From positions 3,286,001 to 3,350,000 of the forward strand of contig JBBCGH010000001.1 of NCBI GenBank assembly GCA_037200445.1: a stretch of 64,000 nucleotides of DNA, read 5' to 3'. The notes under the pieces are model-generated. The model did not search any database. It saw only the letters and a program-made list of their open reading frames with translations, and was not told the DNA's origin. Below, in pieces: positions 7,353-59,274 of this stretch (within the stretch, counting starts at the first letter, position 1; the number at the start of each line of letters is the position of its first letter). A program made the position numbers and the translations under genes. Source of the DNA: Alphaproteobacteria bacterium (GTDB lineage Bacteria > Pseudomonadota > Alphaproteobacteria > Rhizobiales > Xanthobacteraceae).

Positions 7353-10300
7353 CTACGCCGCCTTCTTCTGCTCCGCGATTCCCACCAGCCGCCGCAGGAT
7401 CAGGTTGGCGCCCTTGAGCCGCTGCTCGGGCCGCGGCCAGTCGTCGAAGAACACGACCTTCATGTCAGGCCGCACGCGCGCCGCCGGGCCCTCGTCGCGG
7501 ATGTAGGCGACAAGCCCGTCCGGGTTGGAGAACTCGTTGTTGCGGAACGACAGCACCGCGCCCTTGGGGCCGGTCTCGACCTTCTCGACGTTGGCGCGGC
7601 GGCACAGCGCCTTGATGGCGACGATGCGCAGCAGGTGCTGCACCTCCTCGGGCAACGGCCCGAAGCGGTCGGCAAGCTCCGCGCCGAAGGCATCGATCTC
7701 GCGCTCGTCCTCGATATCGGCGAGCCGCCGGTAGAGGCCGAGCCGCACCGAGAGGTCGGCGACGTATTCCTCCGGGATCAGCACCGGCATGCCGATGGTG
7801 ATCTGCGGCGACCAGCGGTCCGGCGCGGGCTCGACCAGCCCGGCCTTCATGCTCATCACGGCCTCTTCCAGCATCTGCTGGTAGAGCTCGAAGCCGACCT
7901 CCTTGATGTGGCCGGACTGTTCCTCGCCCAGCAGATTGCCGGCGCCGCGGATATCGAGGTCGTGCGAGGCAAGCTGGAAACCCGCGCCGAGCGTGTCGAG
8001 CGATTGCAGGACTTTCAGCCGCCGCTCCGCCTGCGCGGTGATGCGCTTGTTCGCCGGCAGGGTGAACAGCGCGTAGGCGCGCGTCTTCGACCGGCCCACC
8101 CTGCCCCGCAATTGATAAAGCTGCGACAAGCCGAACATGTCGGCGCGGTGCACGATCAGCGTGTTGGCGGTCGGGATGTCGAGGCCGGATTCGACGATCG
8201 TGGTCGAGAGCAGCACGTCGTACTTGCCGTCGTAGAAGGCCGACATGATGTCTTCGAGGATACCCGCCGGCATCTGCCCGTGCGCGACCGCGACGCGCGC
8301 CTCCGGCACGGTCTGGTCGAGATAGGCCTTCACCTCGGCGAGGTCCTCGATGCGCGGCGAGACGTAGAACGCCTGCCCGCCACGGTAGCGCTCGCGCAGC
8401 AGCGCCTCGCGCACCGTGATGGGGTCGAACGGCGCGATGAAGGTGCGCACCGCGAGGCGATCCACCGGCGCGGAGGCGATGATCGAGAGATCGCGCACGC
8501 CGGTCAGCGCAAGCTGCAAGGTGCGGGGGATCGGCGTCGCGGTCAATGTGAGGACATGCACCTCGGCGCGCATCTGCTTGATCTTTTCCTTGTGCGCGAC
8601 GCCGAAGTGCTGCTCCTCGTCGACCACCAGCAGGCCGAGATCCTTGAACTTGATTGCTTTGCCGAGCAGCGCATGCGTGCCGATCACGATGTCGACGGTG
8701 CCGTCGGCAAGGCCCTGCTTGGTCGCCTTGAGGTCGGCGCTCGCGACAAGTCGCGAGGCCTGCGCCACCTTCAAGGGGAAGCCGCGGAAGCGCTCGCTGA
8801 AGGTCTTGAAGTGCTGGCGCGCCAAGAGCGTCGTCGGCACCACAACCGCGACCTGCTTGCCGTTCATCGCCGCAATGAAAGCGGCGCGCAACGCGACCTC
8901 GGTCTTGCCGAACCCGACGTCGCCGCACACGAGACGATCCATCGGCTTGCCCGAGCCGAGATCGTCGAGCACGCGGTCGATCACGGCTTCCTGGTCCTCG
9001 GTCTCGTCGTAGGGGAAGCCGGCGCAGAACTCCTCGTACATGCCATGCGCGACGGTGAGCTTCGCGCCTTCGCGGAGCTGGCGCGCGGCCGCGATCTTGA
9101 TCAGTTCGCCCGCCATCTCGCGGATGCGGTTCTTCAGGCGCGCTTTCCGGGTCTGCCAGCCGACGCCGCCCAGCTTGTCGAGTTGGACGTTGGTGTCTTC
9201 GGAGCCGTAACGCGACAAAAGCTCGATGTTCTCGACCGGCAAATAGAGCTTGGCGCCTTCCGCGTAGTGCAGTTCGAGGCAGTCGTGGGGCGCGCCGGCG
9301 GCTTCGATCGTCTGCAGGCCCGCGAAACGGCCGATGCCATGATCGACATGAACGACAAGATCGCCGGCATCGAGGCTGGTCACCTCCGCGATGAAGTCCT
9401 CCGGCCGCTTCGAGGCACGTCGGCGGCGCACCAGCCGGTCGCCGAGAATGTCCTGCTCGGCGATGACGGCGAGGTCGGCGGTCTCGAAACCGGATTCGAG
9501 ACCAAGCACGGCCAGCGAAACCTCGACATTCGGGCGCCGGAGCACGTCCGGAAAGCTCGCGACATTCGTCAGATTGACCAAGCCATGGTCGGAGAGCACG
9601 TGGCTCATACGCTCGCGCGAGCCATCACTCCACATCGCGATCACGACGCTCTTGCCGTCCGCCTGGAGGGCATGGACGTGCTTGGTGACCGCGTCGAAGA
9701 CATTCCGCTCCGCTTCGGCGCGTTCCGGCGCGAAGTTGCGTCCGGCGTGGGTGCCGGCATCGCCAATGCTGGGGTCGGGATCTGCAAAGGGTGTCAGCCG
9801 CGCCACTGCGTGTTCACCCAAGAGGGATCTCCAGCTGTCTTCGCCCAAATACAGCCGGTCCGGCGGCAGCGGCTTGTAGACCGAGTTGGCGCGGTCGGCG
9901 TCGAGCGCCTGGCGCCGCGCCTCGTAGTAGTCGGCGATCTGCGCAAACCGCTCATGGGCGGCGTCCTCGGCGAGCGGTTCCAGCACCACCGCCGCGCCTG
10001 GCACGTAATCGAACAGGGTATCCAGCTTGGCGTGAAACAGCGGCAGCCAGTGCTCCATGCCGGGATGGCGGCGGCCTTCAGACACCGCCTCGTAGAGCGG
10101 ATCGCTCGCCGAGGTGCCGAACGACTCCACATAGCCCTGGCGGAAGCGGCGCATGGTCTCGCTGGTGAGCTGAAATTCGGCGACCGGGACCAGATCGAGT
10201 GCGCGCAGGGTGTCCTGCGACCGCTGCGTCTCGGCATCGAACGAACGGATCGACTCCAGTGTGTCGCCGAAGAAATCGAGTCGCACGGGATCGCCCGCTC

Positions 10301-10853
10301 CGGGCGGATAGAGATCGACGATGCCGCCGCGCACCGCGTAATCGCCCGCCTCGCGCACCGTCGAAGTGCGATTGTAGCCGTTGAGCTCGAGCCACTTCGT
10401 GACCCCGTCCATCGCCAGCATGTTGCCGGCCGCAGCCGAGAGGGACTGCGTCGCGATCGCCGATTTCGCGGGCACGCGCTGCAGCGCCGCGTTGACCGTG
10501 GTGAGTACCACGCCCGGCTTCTCGCGGCCTTGCAGGCGCGCGAGGCGCGACAGCGTGGTCATGCGCTGCGCGACGATCCCCGAATGCGGCGAGACACGGT
10601 CATAGGGGAGGCAATCCCAGGCCGGAAACTCGTTGATCTCGATCTCAGGCGCGAAGAACGCGAGCGCGCGGGCAAGCTGCGCCATGCGCGGCCCGTCGCG
10701 GCAGATCACCACGAGGCTGGTCGCGGGCGCGTTCGGCTTTGCCGCGACTGCACGCGCCAGATCGGCGACGATCAGCCCTTCGGCGCCGTCGGCGACACCC
10801 GAGAGTGTCAAGGCACGGCCGGGAACGAGGAGCTCAGCGGGCGACTTCGCCAT
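7353..10853 (-). CDS. mfd: Transcription-repair coupling factor Mfd
   Basis: 1166 residues, the normal length for the family. The UvrB-homology region at the N-terminus is followed by the RNA-polymerase-interacting domain (GDLVVHVDHGIGRF). The RecG-like translocase has Walker A GDVGFGKTEVALR near residue 641 and DEEQH near residue 743, then TATPIPRTL and QLRGRVGR. The TRCF C-terminal domain closes the protein. Mfd removes RNA polymerase stalled at DNA lesions and recruits UvrA; uvrA itself lies at 62.75 kb. Its ATG shares one base with the stop of sdhE (TGATG), so the two are coupled. A long open frame on the opposite strand across this gene is a composition artefact. Confidence 0.98.
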   Translation of the reverse strand: MAKSPAELLVPGRALTLSGVADGAEGLIVADLARAVAAKPNAPATSLVVICRDGPRMAQLARALAFFAPEIEINEFPAWDCLPYDRVSPHSGIVAQRMTTLSRLARLQGREKPGVVLTTVNAALQRVPAKSAIATQSLSAAAGNMLAMDGVTKWLELNGYNRTSTVREAGDYAVRGGIVDLYPPGAGDPVRLDFFGDTLESIRSFDAETQRSQDTLRALDLVPVAEFQLTSETMRRFRQGYVESFGTSASDPLYEAVSEGRRHPGMEHWLPLFHAKLDTLFDYVPGAAVVLEPLAEDAAHERFAQIADYYEARRQALDADRANSVYKPLPPDRLYLGEDSWRSLLGEHAVARLTPFADPDPSIGDAGTHAGRNFAPERAEAERNVFDAVTKHVHALQADGKSVVIAMWSDGSRERMSHVLSDHGLVNLTNVASFPDVLRRPNVEVSLAVLGLESGFETADLAVIAEQDILGDRLVRRRRASKRPEDFIAEVTSLDAGDLVVHVDHGIGRFAGLQTIEAAGAPHDCLELHYAEGAKLYLPVENIELLSRYGSEDTNVQLDKLGGVGWQTRKARLKNRIREMAGELIKIAAARQLREGAKLTVAHGMYEEFCAGFPYDETEDQEAVIDRVLDDLGSGKPMDRLVCGDVGFGKTEVALRAAFIAAMNGKQVAVVVPTTLLARQHFKTFSERFRGFPLKVAQASRLVASADLKATKQGLADGTVDIVIGTHALLGKAIKFKDLGLLVVDEEQHFGVAHKEKIKQMRAEVHVLTLTATPIPRTLQLALTGVRDLSIIASAPVDRLAVRTFIAPFDPITVREALLRERYRGGQAFYVSPRIEDLAEVKAYLDQTVPEARVAVAHGQMPAGILEDIMSAFYDGKYDVLLSTTIVESGLDIPTANTLIVHRADMFGLSQLYQLRGRVGRSKTRAYALFTLPANKRITAQAERRLKVLQSLDTLGAGFQLASHDLDIRGAGNLLGEEQSGHIKEVGFELYQQMLEEAVMSMKAGLVEPAPDRWSPQITIGMPVLIPEEYVADLSVRLGLYRRLADIEDEREIDAFGAELADRFGPLPEEVQHLLRIVAIKALCRRANVEKVETGPKGAVLSFRNNEFSNPDGLVAYIRDEGPAARVRPDMKVVFFDDWPRPEQRLKGANLILRRLVGIAEQKKAA

Positions 10854-54223: not shown

Positions 54224-54718
54224 TCAGAACGGAATCTCATCATCCAGATCGCCGCGCTTGCCGCCGCCGCCCGCCATCGCGGGCGCCCGTTCGCGTGCGG
54301 CCGGACGCGACGAGCCGAAATCGCTGCCTCCGCTCTCGCCATAATCGCCGCCGCCACCGCCGCCACCGGCCCGATCGAGCATGGTCAACGCCGAGTTGAA
54401 GCCCTGCAGCACCACTTCGGTCGAATATTTCTCGACCCCCTGCTGATCGGTCCACTTGCGCGTCTGCAGTGCCCCCTCGAGGTAAACCTTGGAGCCTTTC
54501 TTGAGATACTGTTCGGCGATCTTGGCGAGGCCCTCGTTGAAGATCACCACGCGATGCCACTCGGTCTTTTCCTTGCGCTCGCCGGTCGCCTTGTCCCGCC
54601 AGCTTTCCGAGGTCGCGACGCTCATGTTCACGACCGGCCGGCCGTCCTGCATGCGCCGCACCTCCGGGTCCTTGCCCAGATTGCCGACCAGAATGACCTT
54701 GTTGACTGAACCCGCCAT
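54224..54718 (-). CDS. ssb: Single-stranded DNA-binding protein
   Basis: 164 residues. The OB-fold starts [22 protein letters not shown] and contains [21 protein letters not shown] glycine-rich linker ([19 protein letters not shown]) leads to the acidic tip [12 protein letters not shown], which recruits repair partners. A LexA box (54830-54844) lies 112 bp upstream. In relatives the neighbour across this promoter is usually uvrA; here uvrA is 8 kb away. The start at 54718 matches the family (MAGSVNK). Confidence 0.97.
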
Positions 54719-54829
54719 TGATGCCTCCACAAACCTTCGAAATTCACCCTACGCGCTTGTTCGTCGGGTCGCCCGCCTGCCGACCACTTGTCCACGCCAA
54801 TATGGGGTGCGGGCACGCTATTCACATGT

Positions 54830-54892: not shown

Positions 54893-55795
54893 CTACAGCG
54901 CGCCTTCGAGGAACAAGAGCGCCTTCGGCCCCGCATAGGCACCGAAGCCCTCGTCGACCGGATCGACCGACCAGAAATGCCCGGCGCCCGGCACCACGAT
55001 GCTGCGCACGAAGAACCCGGCCTGCCGCAGCGCCTTGGAGAACGGCTCGGACTGGGTCTTCGGGTCGGCGATGTCGTCCTCGTGGCCGTAGATCAGCAGG
55101 AAGCGGGGGCCGTTCTTGTCCACGGTCGCATAGCTCATCGGCGAGGCATCGAAATAGACCTTGCGGTTCACCATAGGCGCACCGCCAAGAAGCTTCTCCA
55201 CGATGTTGTCGCGCGGGCGCGTGACGAGATCGTGCTCCCACTGCGCCGCCATGTCGTAGACGCCATAGAAGCCGATGACGGTCTTCACTTTCGCCGACAC
55301 GGCGGCATGCGGATCAGACTTGTATTCGGTCGAGAACAGCGGCTCGTCACCAGCGAGCGCAACCAGCGAGGAGAGATGCGCTCCGGCGCTGTCGCCGATC
55401 ATCCCGATCCGCTCGGGATCGACGCCGAGCTGGCTTGCATTGGCCCGCACGTATTGCACCGCAGCCTTCGTGTCATAGACCGCGCCGGGCCAAGTCTTCA
55501 CGCCGGGCTTCATCAGCCGGTATTCGATGGCGAAGACCGCATAGCCGTTCCTGGCGAGATACGTGCCCCAGTTTTTGTAGAACTTGCGATCGCCGATCTG
55601 CCAGCCGCCGCCATGCACCCCGACCAGCACCGGCGCCTTCTCGACCCCTTTCGGCAGATAGAGATCGCCGAGCAGCTTCGTGCCGTCGTGCTCGGCGAAC
55701 ACGATGTCGTTGCGGACCGTCACCTCGTATTCGCGCGCGTTCGCTGTCGTCATCATCATCACCGCCGCGAGCGCGGCGCCCCACAGTTTGAGCAT
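54893..55795 (-). CDS. Secreted alpha/beta-hydrolase (carboxylesterase-like)
   Basis: 300 residues. A signal peptide (MLKLWGAALAAVMMMTTANA) is followed by a hormone-sensitive-lipase-like core: the oxyanion-hole motif HGGGW in VGVHGGGWQIGDRK near residue 65, nucleophile elbow GDSAGAH near residue 143, and a late GAGHFW containing the catalytic His. It should hydrolyse an ester in the periplasm; the substrate is unknown. It ends near the ssb control region. Confidence 0.85.
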   Translation of the reverse strand: MLKLWGAALAAVMMMTTANAREYEVTVRNDIVFAEHDGTKLLGDLYLPKGVEKAPVLVGVHGGGWQIGDRKFYKNWGTYLARNGYAVFAIEYRLMKPGVKTWPGAVYDTKAAVQYVRANASQLGVDPERIGMIGDSAGAHLSSLVALAGDEPLFSTEYKSDPHAAVSAKVKTVIGFYGVYDMAAQWEHDLVTRPRDNIVEKLLGGAPMVNRKVYFDASPMSYATVDKNGPRFLLIYGHEDDIADPKTQSEPFSKALRQAGFFVRSIVVPGAGHFWSVDPVDEGFGAYAGPKALLFLEGAL

Positions 55796-56055
55796 GGATC
55801 TCCTCCCGCGCCGCCCGTGTTCTGGCGAGGCTTGGGCGGAATGGTAGCGCGGGGCGCAGATCATCGGCTCCCCGCCGGACGCGGAGCCGCCCTGCGCCTG
55901 GAGGCGAGCGGTTTCGGCCCCGACCTTGCCTTGAGCCGGGGTCCCATCGCAGAAAAAAAGCCGCGGCCATGTCGAGAACGGCCGTTCCCGAACGTCGTGG
56001 GAGTGAAGGGCCCCGCAGGGTCGAACGCACGGGTCAACTCAGGAGGGCGGGCGCC

Positions 56056-57264
56056 ATGAGTCGCTCCTATCGCTGGATCATCGTTGCGGCGGGTGGCCTG
56101 CTCGGCTGCGTCGCGATCGGCGCGATGTTCTCGCTGCCGGTATTCCTGGGCGCCATCACCCGCGACACCGGCTGGTCCGTCACCGGCGTGTCGAGCGCGA
56201 TGACCATCGCGTTTCTCGCGATGGCATCGACCAGCATGGCCTGGGGCAATCTGTCGGACCGCTATGGGACGCGCTTCGTCGTCCTGACCGGCTCCGTGAT
56301 CCTCGCCGTGAGCCTCGCGCTCGCCAGCCAGACGACTTCGCTGCTCGCGTTTCAGCTCACCTTCGGCCTGTTCATCGGCGGCAGCATCTCGGCGATCTTC
56401 GCGCCGATGATGGCTTGCGTCACCGGCTGGTTCGACACGCACCGCAGCCTTGCCGTCTCGCTCGTCTCCGCCGGCATGGGCATGGCGCCGATGACCATGT
56501 CGCCGCTCGCCGCATGGCTCGTCTCGGTCCACGACTGGCGGACCTCGATGCTGATCATCGCGGGCATCGTCGCGGCGGTGATGATCCCGGTGGCGTTCCT
56601 GGTGCGCCGCCCGCCGGCTCTGGAACGCGGAAACGCCGTACCTGTGCCGGGCGATGCGGATACCGGGATGTCGGTCGCGCAGGCATTGAAGTCGCCCCAG
56701 TTCATCACGTTGCTGCTGACCAACTTCTTCTGCTGCGCGACGCATTCCGGCCCGATCATCCACACGGTGAACTATGCGGTGAGCTGCGGCATCCCGCTGA
56801 TCATGGCGGTCTCGATCTACAGCGTGGAAGGGTTCGCGGGCCTCGGCGGCCGCATCGGCTTTGGCCTCGCCGGGGACAAATTCGGCGCAAAGCGAGTTCT
56901 GGTCATCGGCCTGCTGGTCCAGGCGCTGGGCGCGCTTGGCTATCTGGCGGCGCGCGATCTTTCCACGTTCTATGCGGCTGCGGCGCTCTTCGGCTTCGTC
57001 TATGCCGGCACCATGCCGCTCTACGCGGCGATCGCGCGAGAGAACTTTCCCCTGCGCATGATGGGAACGGTCATCGGCGGCATCGCGATGGCGGGCAGCC
57101 TTGGCATGGCGACAGGACCGGTCGCGGGCGGGCTGATCTACGACTCGTTCGCGAGCTACACGTGGCTCTATCTCGGATCGTTCGGCATGGGGATTGGTGC
57201 GTTCCTGATCGCCATGACGTTCAGGCCGTTCCCGAAGGGCCAGGCGGTGCCGGCGGCCGCGTGA
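56056..57264 (+). CDS. Major facilitator superfamily transporter (OFA/MCT-like)
   Basis: 402 residues with 12 predicted helices. MSRSYRWIIVAAGGLLGCVAIGAMFSLPVF, the loop GNLSDRYGTRFV and the second-half FGLAGDKFGAKRV are typical of MFS antiporters of the oxalate/formate-monocarboxylate branch. AGGAGGGCGG upstream of ATG 56056 decides the start. The substrate is likely a small carboxylate; this is inference. Confidence 0.85.
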   Translation: MSRSYRWIIVAAGGLLGCVAIGAMFSLPVFLGAITRDTGWSVTGVSSAMTIAFLAMASTSMAWGNLSDRYGTRFVVLTGSVILAVSLALASQTTSLLAFQLTFGLFIGGSISAIFAPMMACVTGWFDTHRSLAVSLVSAGMGMAPMTMSPLAAWLVSVHDWRTSMLIIAGIVAAVMIPVAFLVRRPPALERGNAVPVPGDADTGMSVAQALKSPQFITLLLTNFFCCATHSGPIIHTVNYAVSCGIPLIMAVSIYSVEGFAGLGGRIGFGLAGDKFGAKRVLVIGLLVQALGALGYLAARDLSTFYAAAALFGFVYAGTMPLYAAIARENFPLRMMGTVIGGIAMAGSLGMATGPVAGGLIYDSFASYTWLYLGSFGMGIGAFLIAMTFRPFPKGQAVPAAA

Positions 57265-57287: not shown

Positions 57288-57739
57288 TTAGAATGGAATT
57301 TCGTCGTCTGAGTCGCCCCTTTTCTTAGGTACGCGCGGCGGCTCTATTCGCTTCGGTGTTGTGGGGGGCGGGAGTCGTTTGGTTTCCTGATCCCTCTTCG
57401 AACCCCAAATCACTCGGGCGATGGCGTTAAGGACGTCGAGTACTTTCTTTTCTCAACGGACTCTCCGACTACACCTGCGGCTTCAACCGCCAATGCTGCA
57501 TAGACATCGAAGCGTGTTCGGTCACGGTCGACCTCATGCTGTAGTTCAGTGAGCTTGTTGAAGAGTGAATCGCGCTTGTCTTGCTCGATCTCCAGTTTCC
57601 CGAAAATCTCTCGCAGTTGCTCGATGTGGTGTTGGACCTTGAGCTTGGTCGTGGCATCGAACTGAACCGAATAGCCTTGGACCCGCCGACCTCGCAGATT
57701 CTCATAGATGTCGGCCTCGGATTGCCCAAAATCTCCCAT
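57288..57739 (-). pseudogene. Frameshifted coiled-coil protein with an SSB-type C-terminal tip
   Basis: From ATG 57739 (GGAGG 5 bp upstream) the frame encodes a helical protein, including LKVQHHIEQLREIFGKLEIE and EVDRDRTRFDVYAALAVEAA, and then runs into the stop at 57410. One frame over, the protein continues naturally as KKVLDVLNAIARVIWGSK, a Pro-rich linker, and PKKRGDSDDEIPF followed by TAA at 57290-57288. One added A in the AAAA run near 57450 joins both parts into about 150 residues. The last residues match the acidic tip of this window's SSB ([11 protein letters not shown]). Codon use (AGA, TTA, AAA) differs from neighbours, suggesting transfer. It may be intact if the indel is a sequencing error. 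Confidence 0.65.
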
Positions 57740-57844: not shown

Positions 57845-58654
57845 TCAATGCCCAATATCCACCAGTGACCCGCCATCCACCGGCAACTGCACGCCGGTAA
57901 TGAAATTCGCCTCGTCCGAGGCGAGGAACAGCGCGGCGTTCGCCACGTCCCAGGCGGTGCCCATCTTGCGGCGTAGCGGCACGCGCGCGTCGCGCATCGC
58001 CGCGACTTCCGCGCGCGGCTTGCCGGTGTGGCGGGCCCGCGTGTCGACCGCCATCGGCGTGTCCATCAGGCCGGGCAGGATCACGTTGCAGCGGATGCCG
58101 TATTCGGCGTTCTGGATCGCGATCTGCTGGCAGTAGGCGACCATCGCGGACTTCGAGGCCTTGTAGGCGACGTACGGATATTTCTCCCACGCGGCGAGCG
58201 AGGAGATGCCGAGGATCACGCCGGACTTCTGCGCGCGCATGATCGGCAGCACGTGCTTCACCGCCATCACCATGCCGCGCAGGTTCACGGTCAGAACGCG
58301 GTCGAAGGCCTCCTCGGTGATCTCTGTCGGCGGCGCATCGCCGCCCGCGATCGAGAAGCCGACATTGTAGTGCAGGATGTCGATGCGGCCCCACTTCGCC
58401 TTGCAGGCGTCGATCATCTGTTTCATCGAGGCTTCGCGCGTGACGTCCGCCTCGAACGCCTCGCATTCGCCGGCATTGGTCTCCTTCGCGGCCATCGCGG
58501 CGGTTTCTTCCGCCGACTTCACGTCCTTGTCGACACACAGCACCTTCGCGCCTTCCTGCGCGAAGCGGATGACGGTCGCCCGCCCGTTGCCCATGCCGGT
58601 TCCGGGCCCTTGGCCCGCGCCGACCACGATCGCGATCTTGTCTTGAAGGCGCAT
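57845..58654 (-). CDS. Short-chain dehydrogenase/reductase
   Basis: 269 residues. The cofactor loop is VGAGQGPGTGMGNGRA, a variant of TGxxxGxG with an insertion; the catalytic Ser is in ISSLAAWEKY and YxxxK in VAYKASKSAM near residue 160; the C-terminus is VDGGSLVDIG. Probably NAD(P)-dependent oxidation or reduction of an alcohol/ketone, substrate unknown. AAGGAAG upstream of ATG 58654 supports the start. Confidence 0.88.
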   Translation of the reverse strand: MRLQDKIAIVVGAGQGPGTGMGNGRATVIRFAQEGAKVLCVDKDVKSAEETAAMAAKETNAGECEAFEADVTREASMKQMIDACKAKWGRIDILHYNVGFSIAGGDAPPTEITEEAFDRVLTVNLRGMVMAVKHVLPIMRAQKSGVILGISSLAAWEKYPYVAYKASKSAMVAYCQQIAIQNAEYGIRCNVILPGLMDTPMAVDTRARHTGKPRAEVAAMRDARVPLRRKMGTAWDVANAALFLASDEANFITGVQLPVDGGSLVDIGH

Positions 58655-58752
58655 TGTCCGATCTTCCTTGTCAGGTACCCCAAAACGGCACCTTTTCGTT
58701 ATCCGCAATGCGGGTCGCCCCGCCAGCCCCAACCTGGCATGGCTGGCCTCTC

Positions 58753-59274
58753 TCACACGGCGCGTGCGATCCATACCAGACCGCGCCAGTCCCCAAATCC
58801 GTCGTAGTGAGCGGTGAAGTCGCGTGCGGGATCGCGTTCCAGGCGCAGCCGCTCCATCACGGCCTGCGACCTGACATTGTCGGGCGCCGTGTAGGCGAAC
58901 ACCTCTCTTAGTCCGGCTCGCGTGAAGGCGTCGCGGAGCGCAGCGCGCGCCGCCTCTGTGGCGTAGCCGTGGCCCCACGCGCTGCGCATGAGCCGCCAGC
59001 CGACTTCCACGTGCGGTCCGAGCGGGTGTCCGGCCGCCGCCGGCATGACGCCCGCATAACCAAGGAACTGGCCGTCCGAACACTCCAGGGCCCACCGGCA
59101 AAAGCCATACCGGTCGAAAGCTGCCGCATAGCGGTCAAATTTCGCGTCGCTGCGCGCGCGGTCCAATGGACCGCCCAGATCCCAAGTGACCTCGGGATCG
59201 GCGTTCAACGCCGCAAATGCGTCCCGGTCCGCCTCGCACCAGCGGCGCAGGCGCATGCGACCCGTATCGATCAC
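58753..59274 (-). CDS. GNAT-family acetyltransferase (RimJ/RimL type)
   Basis: 173 residues from GTG 59274, whose GTGA overlaps the stop of the preceding GNAT gene; ATG 59256 would drop six residues. TGRMRLRRWCEADRDAFAAL, the acetyl-CoA pyrophosphate-binding region MRSAWGHGYATEAARA and NVRSQAVMERLRL are RimJ/RimL-like. It transfers acetyl from acetyl-CoA to an amine, substrate unknown. Confidence 0.85.
   Translation of the reverse strand: MIDTGRMRLRRWCEADRDAFAALNADPEVTWDLGGPLDRARSDAKFDRYAAAFDRYGFCRWALECSDGQFLGYAGVMPAAAGHPLGPHVEVGWRLMRSAWGHGYATEAARAALRDAFTRAGLREVFAYTAPDNVRSQAVMERLRLERDPARDFTAHYDGFGDWRGLVWIARAV

Follow-up and report, generated by a model that had tools for sequence, protein, structure and literature searches.

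An unnamed alphaproteobacterial protein family with a predicted helical body and an SSB-type C-terminal tip, and its decayed copy near a host ssb gene

Proteins that read the C-terminus of the bacterial single-stranded DNA-binding protein (SSB) include RecG, RecO, PriA and RecQ. SSB itself (PF00436; SSB-Ct in E. coli) terminates in an acidic tip, Ile/Val-Pro-Phe being its last residues, which is preceded by a disordered linker of low conservation, and in the excerpt of PMC10164576 that deals with the receiving pockets, the C-terminal Phe sits in a hydrophobic pocket, the carboxylate on a basic lip and the Asp on a basic ridge, with the ssb-113 change hitting the tip Pro. The family described here resembles SSB in its linker and tip; unlike SSB, it has a helical body predicted to be without an OB fold and is a sporadic accessory gene, whereas SSB is a core gene. 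RecG, RecO, RadD, PriA, ExoI and DinG carry the pocket whereas the family carries the peptide, and they would share a docking network. A further parallel, by description, is DdrB of Deinococcus, which is structurally distinct from SSB and has a disordered C-terminus with a purported SSB-like motif, yet is an ssDNA-binding and annealing protein for which the motif is dispensable in radioresistance, according to the passages of PMC3834827 concerned with it. Certain phage proteins (phrog_16 helicases, a phrog_21866 primase and a phrog_743 SSB) likewise place the same terminal tip on unrelated bodies, but these are replication enzymes or ssDNA binders, whereas the body of the family contains no recognised domain.

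The window, that is, the whole stretch of 64,000 nucleotides that was analysed, belongs to a genome assembled as a single contig of 5,835,850 bases; judging by the homologues, the source is an alphaproteobacterium, probably one of the Hyphomicrobiales. The initial annotation had placed an SSB-like tail on a non-SSB gene at 57288–57739 of the minus strand, and the C-terminal tail KKRGDSDDEIPF is indeed encoded there, 3 kb from a host ssb gene with a similar tip. DDEIPF followed by a stop codon occurs at exactly two sites in the 5.8-Mb genome, ssb and the window gene; the pattern read backwards, which served as the control, gave 0 matches in 21 genomes. The features of the locus are as follows.

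54224–54730, minus strand: host ssb (Pfam SSB, 4.1e-38), whose acidic tip is resembled by the tail of the window gene.
55969–57264, plus strand: MFS transporter gene adjoining the family gene, missing from the corresponding stretch of two same-genus genomes.
57288–57739, minus strand: decayed family gene, lacking about 80 first residues and with its frame broken near 57450, as judged from frames, profile matches and comparison with L046 and L047.
57410–57739, minus strand: N-terminal open frame of 109 aa, matching residues 82–191 of L046, the second helical bundle.
57288–57452, minus strand: C-terminal frame of 54 residues, comprising the end of the helical body, a Pro-rich basic linker and the SSB-type tip.
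57288–57308, minus strand: DDEIPF and stop codons, one of the two such sites in the genome.
57845–59101, minus strand: short-chain dehydrogenase (SDR) gene on the other flank, present in both same-genus genomes, with its true start inside the open frame.

The broken frame that had been described at this locus is borne out, as 57410–57739 is open for 109 codons and the tail lies in another frame, 57288–57452, which reads EKKVLDVLNAIARVIWGSKRDQETKRLPPPTTPKRIEPPRVPKKRGDSDDEIPF. The family profile, of 232 positions, matches the window copy in these two frames at positions 95–181 and 185–232. The proposal that a single A would restore the reading frame was correct as to the break but not as to the loss of one base, since comparison with the two closest relatives, L046 and L047, at both the protein and the DNA level gives a net gap of 4 bases. 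Nor is there support for a gene of about 150 residues broken by one base only, as had been supposed, because some 80 N-terminal residues present in the homologues, and with them the first helical domain, are also gone; a one-base slip as the whole of the damage was rejected. One alignment pairs the residues IYENL of the window copy with the N-terminus of the homologues, whereas a second one pairs them with the beginning of the second bundle, so that an internal deletion and a 5' truncation are indistinguishable. From these comparisons we regard the window copy as a remnant of a family gene. Since the first helical domain is missing and there is a 4-base gap, any function belongs to the intact relatives.

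In G+C content the window gene, at 53.8%, is below both the window as a whole (65.1%) and the flanking genes (66.6–66.7%); a value so low occurs in one sliding window out of 1271. Gene orders in the two same-genus genomes, read by eye, are uvrA, SDR, an acetyltransferase-like gene and the hydrolase of 54893–55864 in one (G001), and uvrA, SDR, one small gene and ssb in the other (G002); neither the family gene nor the MFS gene was found in the SDR-side stretch of either, and no family match was obtained among 60 relatives. Low G+C together with absence from relatives fits gain of the window gene by transfer, loss in the relatives being the alternative. In all 25 loci compared, moreover, the family gene is lower in G+C than its locus. 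We therefore infer horizontal origin and movement of the family gene, and in doing so retain a proposal first made from codon use on other grounds, namely the G+C content (53.8% versus 65.1%) and the comparison of same-genus flanks.

Intact homologues make up an unnamed family of proteins of approximately 210–260 residues, occurring sporadically in the Alphaproteobacteria; the 25 members compared have 200–259 residues, with starts chosen by us. A search with the N-terminal part gave matches in 9 of 397 genomes of the order, and a profile built from nine full-length homologues gave matches in 11 of 385 genomes of the class, the source genome being included in each case. Among 299 genomes of the phylum nine exceeded the cut-off, of which four, all from Alphaproteobacteria, were accepted; the five weak matches (G146, G856, G878, G933 and G1010, E 3e-5 to 5e-4) were set aside as noise after inspection of their frames and of their ends, the latter read for four of them. 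Named genome contigs account for nine loci, including those of Mesorhizobium, Ensifer, Methylopila, Bradyrhizobium and Acidisphaera. The N-terminal part of the window gene, used in tblastn, found one match among plasmids, on a 22-kb Methylosinus plasmid, and none among phages, and viral contigs searched with family peptides yielded no confirmed member; the one member from a viral collection (L373) was found solely through its tip. The copy in G514 (L039) is frame-split like that of the window and retains the tip DDDIPF; decay of this kind is the norm for copies of a mobile gene that is not essential. The family itself is genuine and as yet unnamed. The open-access literature yielded no report of it, nor of bodies of this kind with a conserved SSB tip, which is weak evidence of novelty.

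No neighbouring gene family recurs across the 27 loci, of which 26 contain a family frame of sufficient length for clustering. Those groups that do recur are ABC-type ATP-binding genes (7 loci), short-chain dehydrogenases (3 loci), pairs and antisense frames; the first two, typed from the members that lie in the window, are not regular immediate neighbours, and all were taken as background and not as a partner gene. Individual surroundings are varied. One member is upstream of a retron type I-C (RT-Toprim; L034, 9695–12593), at a distance of about 430 bases, and the serine recombinase gene beside the viral-collection member (L373, 376–5417) appears to interrupt a GTA_TIM (gene-transfer-agent) tail gene. 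Another member is located beside selB (L035), and a tip-less one lies between ruvA and ruvB on the same strand (L038, from G664, 9692–10408).

Among members found by homology of the body, 17 of 24 end in Pro-Phe preceded by acidic residues and seven do not. The count excludes the window copy, L047 (whose tail starts DDEI and then diverges), the frame-split L039, the fragment L041 (no tip), L043 and L045 (the same loci as L032 and L025) and L373. The tip is mostly DD[DE]IPF, and its variants include DDEVPF, DDKIPF, DEDIPF, DNEVPF and DDEENPF. When the 17 are taken together with L373, the 18 tip-bearing members have a mean pairwise identity of 30%; identity is 5–14% in columns −40 to −9, 26 and 33% at −8 and −7, and then 78, 69, 42, 69, 100 and 100% from −6 to −1. 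The 100% at the last two columns is partly by definition, as members were sorted by their PF end, but the acidic and Ile/Val columns are independent of the sorting. A tip conserved on so divergent a linker is, judging from these alignments, very probably a selected short motif with which a free linker terminates. The SSB-domain proteins of the family genomes have a tip of the same kind, 20 of the 23 read ending in IPF or VPF, in 16 of the 18 genomes searched; no SSB-domain match was obtained in G383 and G732, two genomes whose family members are tip-less, perhaps through a gap in assembly or search. Repeated loss or gain of the tip is indicated by the tree, on which its presence or absence requires five changes; 66 of 500 shuffles gave a figure as low, so that clustering is not clear. 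The seven members without a PF end indicate that it is not indispensable to the body. Three of these seven (L030, L031 and L038) end in an acidic string.

Neither Pfam SSB (PF00436), absent from the families matched by nine members at E up to 0.1, nor the Pfam, NCBIfam, PADLOC and PHROGs profiles as a whole revealed a convincing domain in these members, the matches being almost all weak and confined to a single member. The best PADLOC result was one weak match, at 4.3e-4, to the candidate PDC-M55C, others being 0.0077 or weaker. A model of the Mesorhizobium member built from nine sequences, of middling confidence (pLDDT 74, pTM 0.53), has helices spanning residues 3–201 with just two strands of three residues each, and residues 205–241 fall nearly all below pLDDT 50. 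The body is accordingly predicted, from model and sequence, not to be an OB fold, and the linker and tail are probably disordered. That the protein is not an SSB, as had been proposed, thus agrees both with the unmatched SSB profile in nine members and with the all-helical prediction for one full-length member, on which an SSB relic was rejected. The homologue search that had been called for showed the tip conserved in proteins predicted to lack an OB fold (17 of 24 intact homologues). Each of the three outcomes that had been named as counting against the proposal, a lack of intact homologues, an unconserved tail and an OB fold upstream of it, failed to occur.

A Foldseek search of the PDB with the family model found nothing convincing (best E 0.52), and neither did a search against the sequences of solved structures, where the best match, at E 0.024, was to a chemotaxis protein. 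VIA-align returned generic helical bundles, among them the HEPN toxin 7ae6 (residues 10–102, Z 7.2, rmsd 3.7 over 93 residues), a score within the range of common helical arrangements. HEPN ribonuclease toxins have the motif R-x(4–6)-H with a conserved His. The family weakly resembles their small helical bundle in the model, but no His conserved in at least 60% of the 25 family rows was found among columns with at most eight gaps, and with so generic a Z score the HEPN toxin reading was left aside.

The same tip is present on other proteins that are not SSB. The source genome and 20 relatives contain 19 DDEIPF-stop sites, every one of which was read: 15 belong to SSB proteins and the other four to the window gene, to a TIR protein of CAP12 type, to an RHH-like protein and to a short frame, the SSB and RHH calls being made by eye. 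Across the class, a DD[DE]IPF-stop site occurs in 219 of 289 genomes, with 0 for the backward control; 28 stretches were taken from genomes with more than one site among those listed, a choice that favours non-SSB proteins, and three more were taken for the non-SSB sites just named. Ten non-SSB tip proteins were scanned and seven have a Pfam domain: DUF736 (two), DUF87 (HerA-type), IS1595 transposase, DUF3127, Abi_C and CAP12 TIR. The HerA-type ATPase, IS1595 transposase, Abi_C protein and CAP12-type TIR protein (L147, L148, L162 and L164), all from alphaproteobacteria, end in DDEIPF; the two DUF736 proteins (L146 and L158) are divergent, and DUF736 is perhaps an ssDNA-related family. The IMG/VR collection holds at least 240 tip-ending frames, of which, among the matches listed, 63 match the bacterial SSB profile and 177 do not, though many of these at least 177 are probably other ssDNA-binding proteins, so that the figure is no count of non-SSB proteins. 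Ten of the IMG/VR tip proteins were scanned with PHROGs, which gave two helicases, a primase, a single-strand DNA-binding protein, two of a family of unknown function and one whose family bears the label porphyrin biosynthesis (with weaker matches to ATPases), three being unmatched. Among phage proteins, helicases, a primase and a protein related to ATPases (L259, L214, L346 and L350) have DDDIPF or DDEIPF as their last residues. For the TIR protein that bears the tip, all eight open frames read from its relatives lacked it; in other proteins, then, the tip can be a local oddity, which counts against a general rule. A plasmid relative of the RHH-like protein was looked for and was not found.

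Our current working hypothesis, which we put at roughly 55%, is that the intact protein is an accessory protein that docks through its SSB-type tip and whose body modulates the docked enzyme. The protein would consist of two helical bundles (residues about 1–102 and 109–203) and a variable Pro-rich linker, with the SSB-type tip in most members, and the tip would plug into the pockets by which SSB partners read the SSB C-terminus. Docking would place the helical body at sites of replication or repair, or on the enzymes themselves, with no ssDNA binding of its own, and the body might then, at a guess, modulate or block the docked enzyme, as a modulator of repair or replication in the service of the mobile gene or of the host against invading DNA. 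The protein may, as had been proposed at the outset, compete for or redirect SSB partners as a decoy, repair adaptor or defence factor. The free C-terminal Phe, the preceding Pro, the acidic residues and the flexible linker are all present, in the tip-bearing members only, and the conserved Pro-Phe and acidic residues are what SSB-tip pockets read, which fits docking; the low confidence of residues 205–241 is what would be expected of a free linker. On these sequence features the tip is probably a docking peptide, and its occurrence on other non-SSB proteins that handle DNA or are mobile fits a portable one. A broader proposal, which we offer only tentatively, is that the SSB tip is a portable tag which mobile, defence and phage proteins of unrelated build have acquired repeatedly in order to use the pockets of SSB partners. 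The helical family would then be a clear bacterial example of such a tag kept throughout a divergent family, and may itself be a lone factor of immunity or anti-repair working at ssDNA or at stalled forks.

A different use of the same pockets can also be envisaged, in which the protein acts as a decoy or inhibitor that saturates them and so suppresses host repair or the phage replisome during transfer or infection. The gene is sporadic and G+C-poor, with copies beside a retron type I-C, on a 22-kb plasmid and beside a serine recombinase in a viral-collection contig, as a decoy might be; however, one tip per chain would compete weakly with tetrameric SSB unless the protein were oligomeric or abundant, and some copies adjoin ordinary chromosomal genes (selB in L035; ruvA and ruvB in L038), so that we consider this role unlikely. 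Rather more doubtful is an autoinhibitory tail, in which the acidic tip would fold back on a basic face of the body instead of onto SSB partners. The second bundle does offer basic residues conserved in 60–80% of the 25 members (K114, R125, K137, R154 and R156), the three PF-less members named above still end acidic, and the acidic C-termini of the RNA chaperone Hfq provide a precedent. Nevertheless, charge by itself would not account for a Pro-Phe that persists in 17 of 24 members while the linker is random, the body, taken as everything except the last 35 residues, is itself net acidic in 22 of the 25, with a mean of −6, and the family end matches the SSB tips of the same genomes.

That acidic body also weighs against an alternative ssDNA-binding protein with a helical body that would use its tip as SSB does, as does the lack of a convincing structural or sequence match to any ssDNA-binding protein; such a protein seems improbable to us, even though phrog_743, an ssDNA-binding family outside PF00436, includes at least one phage protein with the tip, and part of the family has a basic RRRK segment ahead of a YSV strand. 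Coincidence, a chance tail on a junk frame, might be suggested by the broken window copy but is made very unlikely by the 17 of 24 homologues that carry the tip and by backward controls of 0 in both 21 and 289 genomes.

SSB-tip docking has been treated as a system of one peptide-bearing hub and many pocket-bearing partners. If docking by the helical family is true, then a family that is not SSB, together with Abi_C, HerA-type, TIR and transposase proteins, would plug into the sockets that serve that hub, and the tip would become a sequence signature by which accessory or immune proteins acting at ssDNA could be found.
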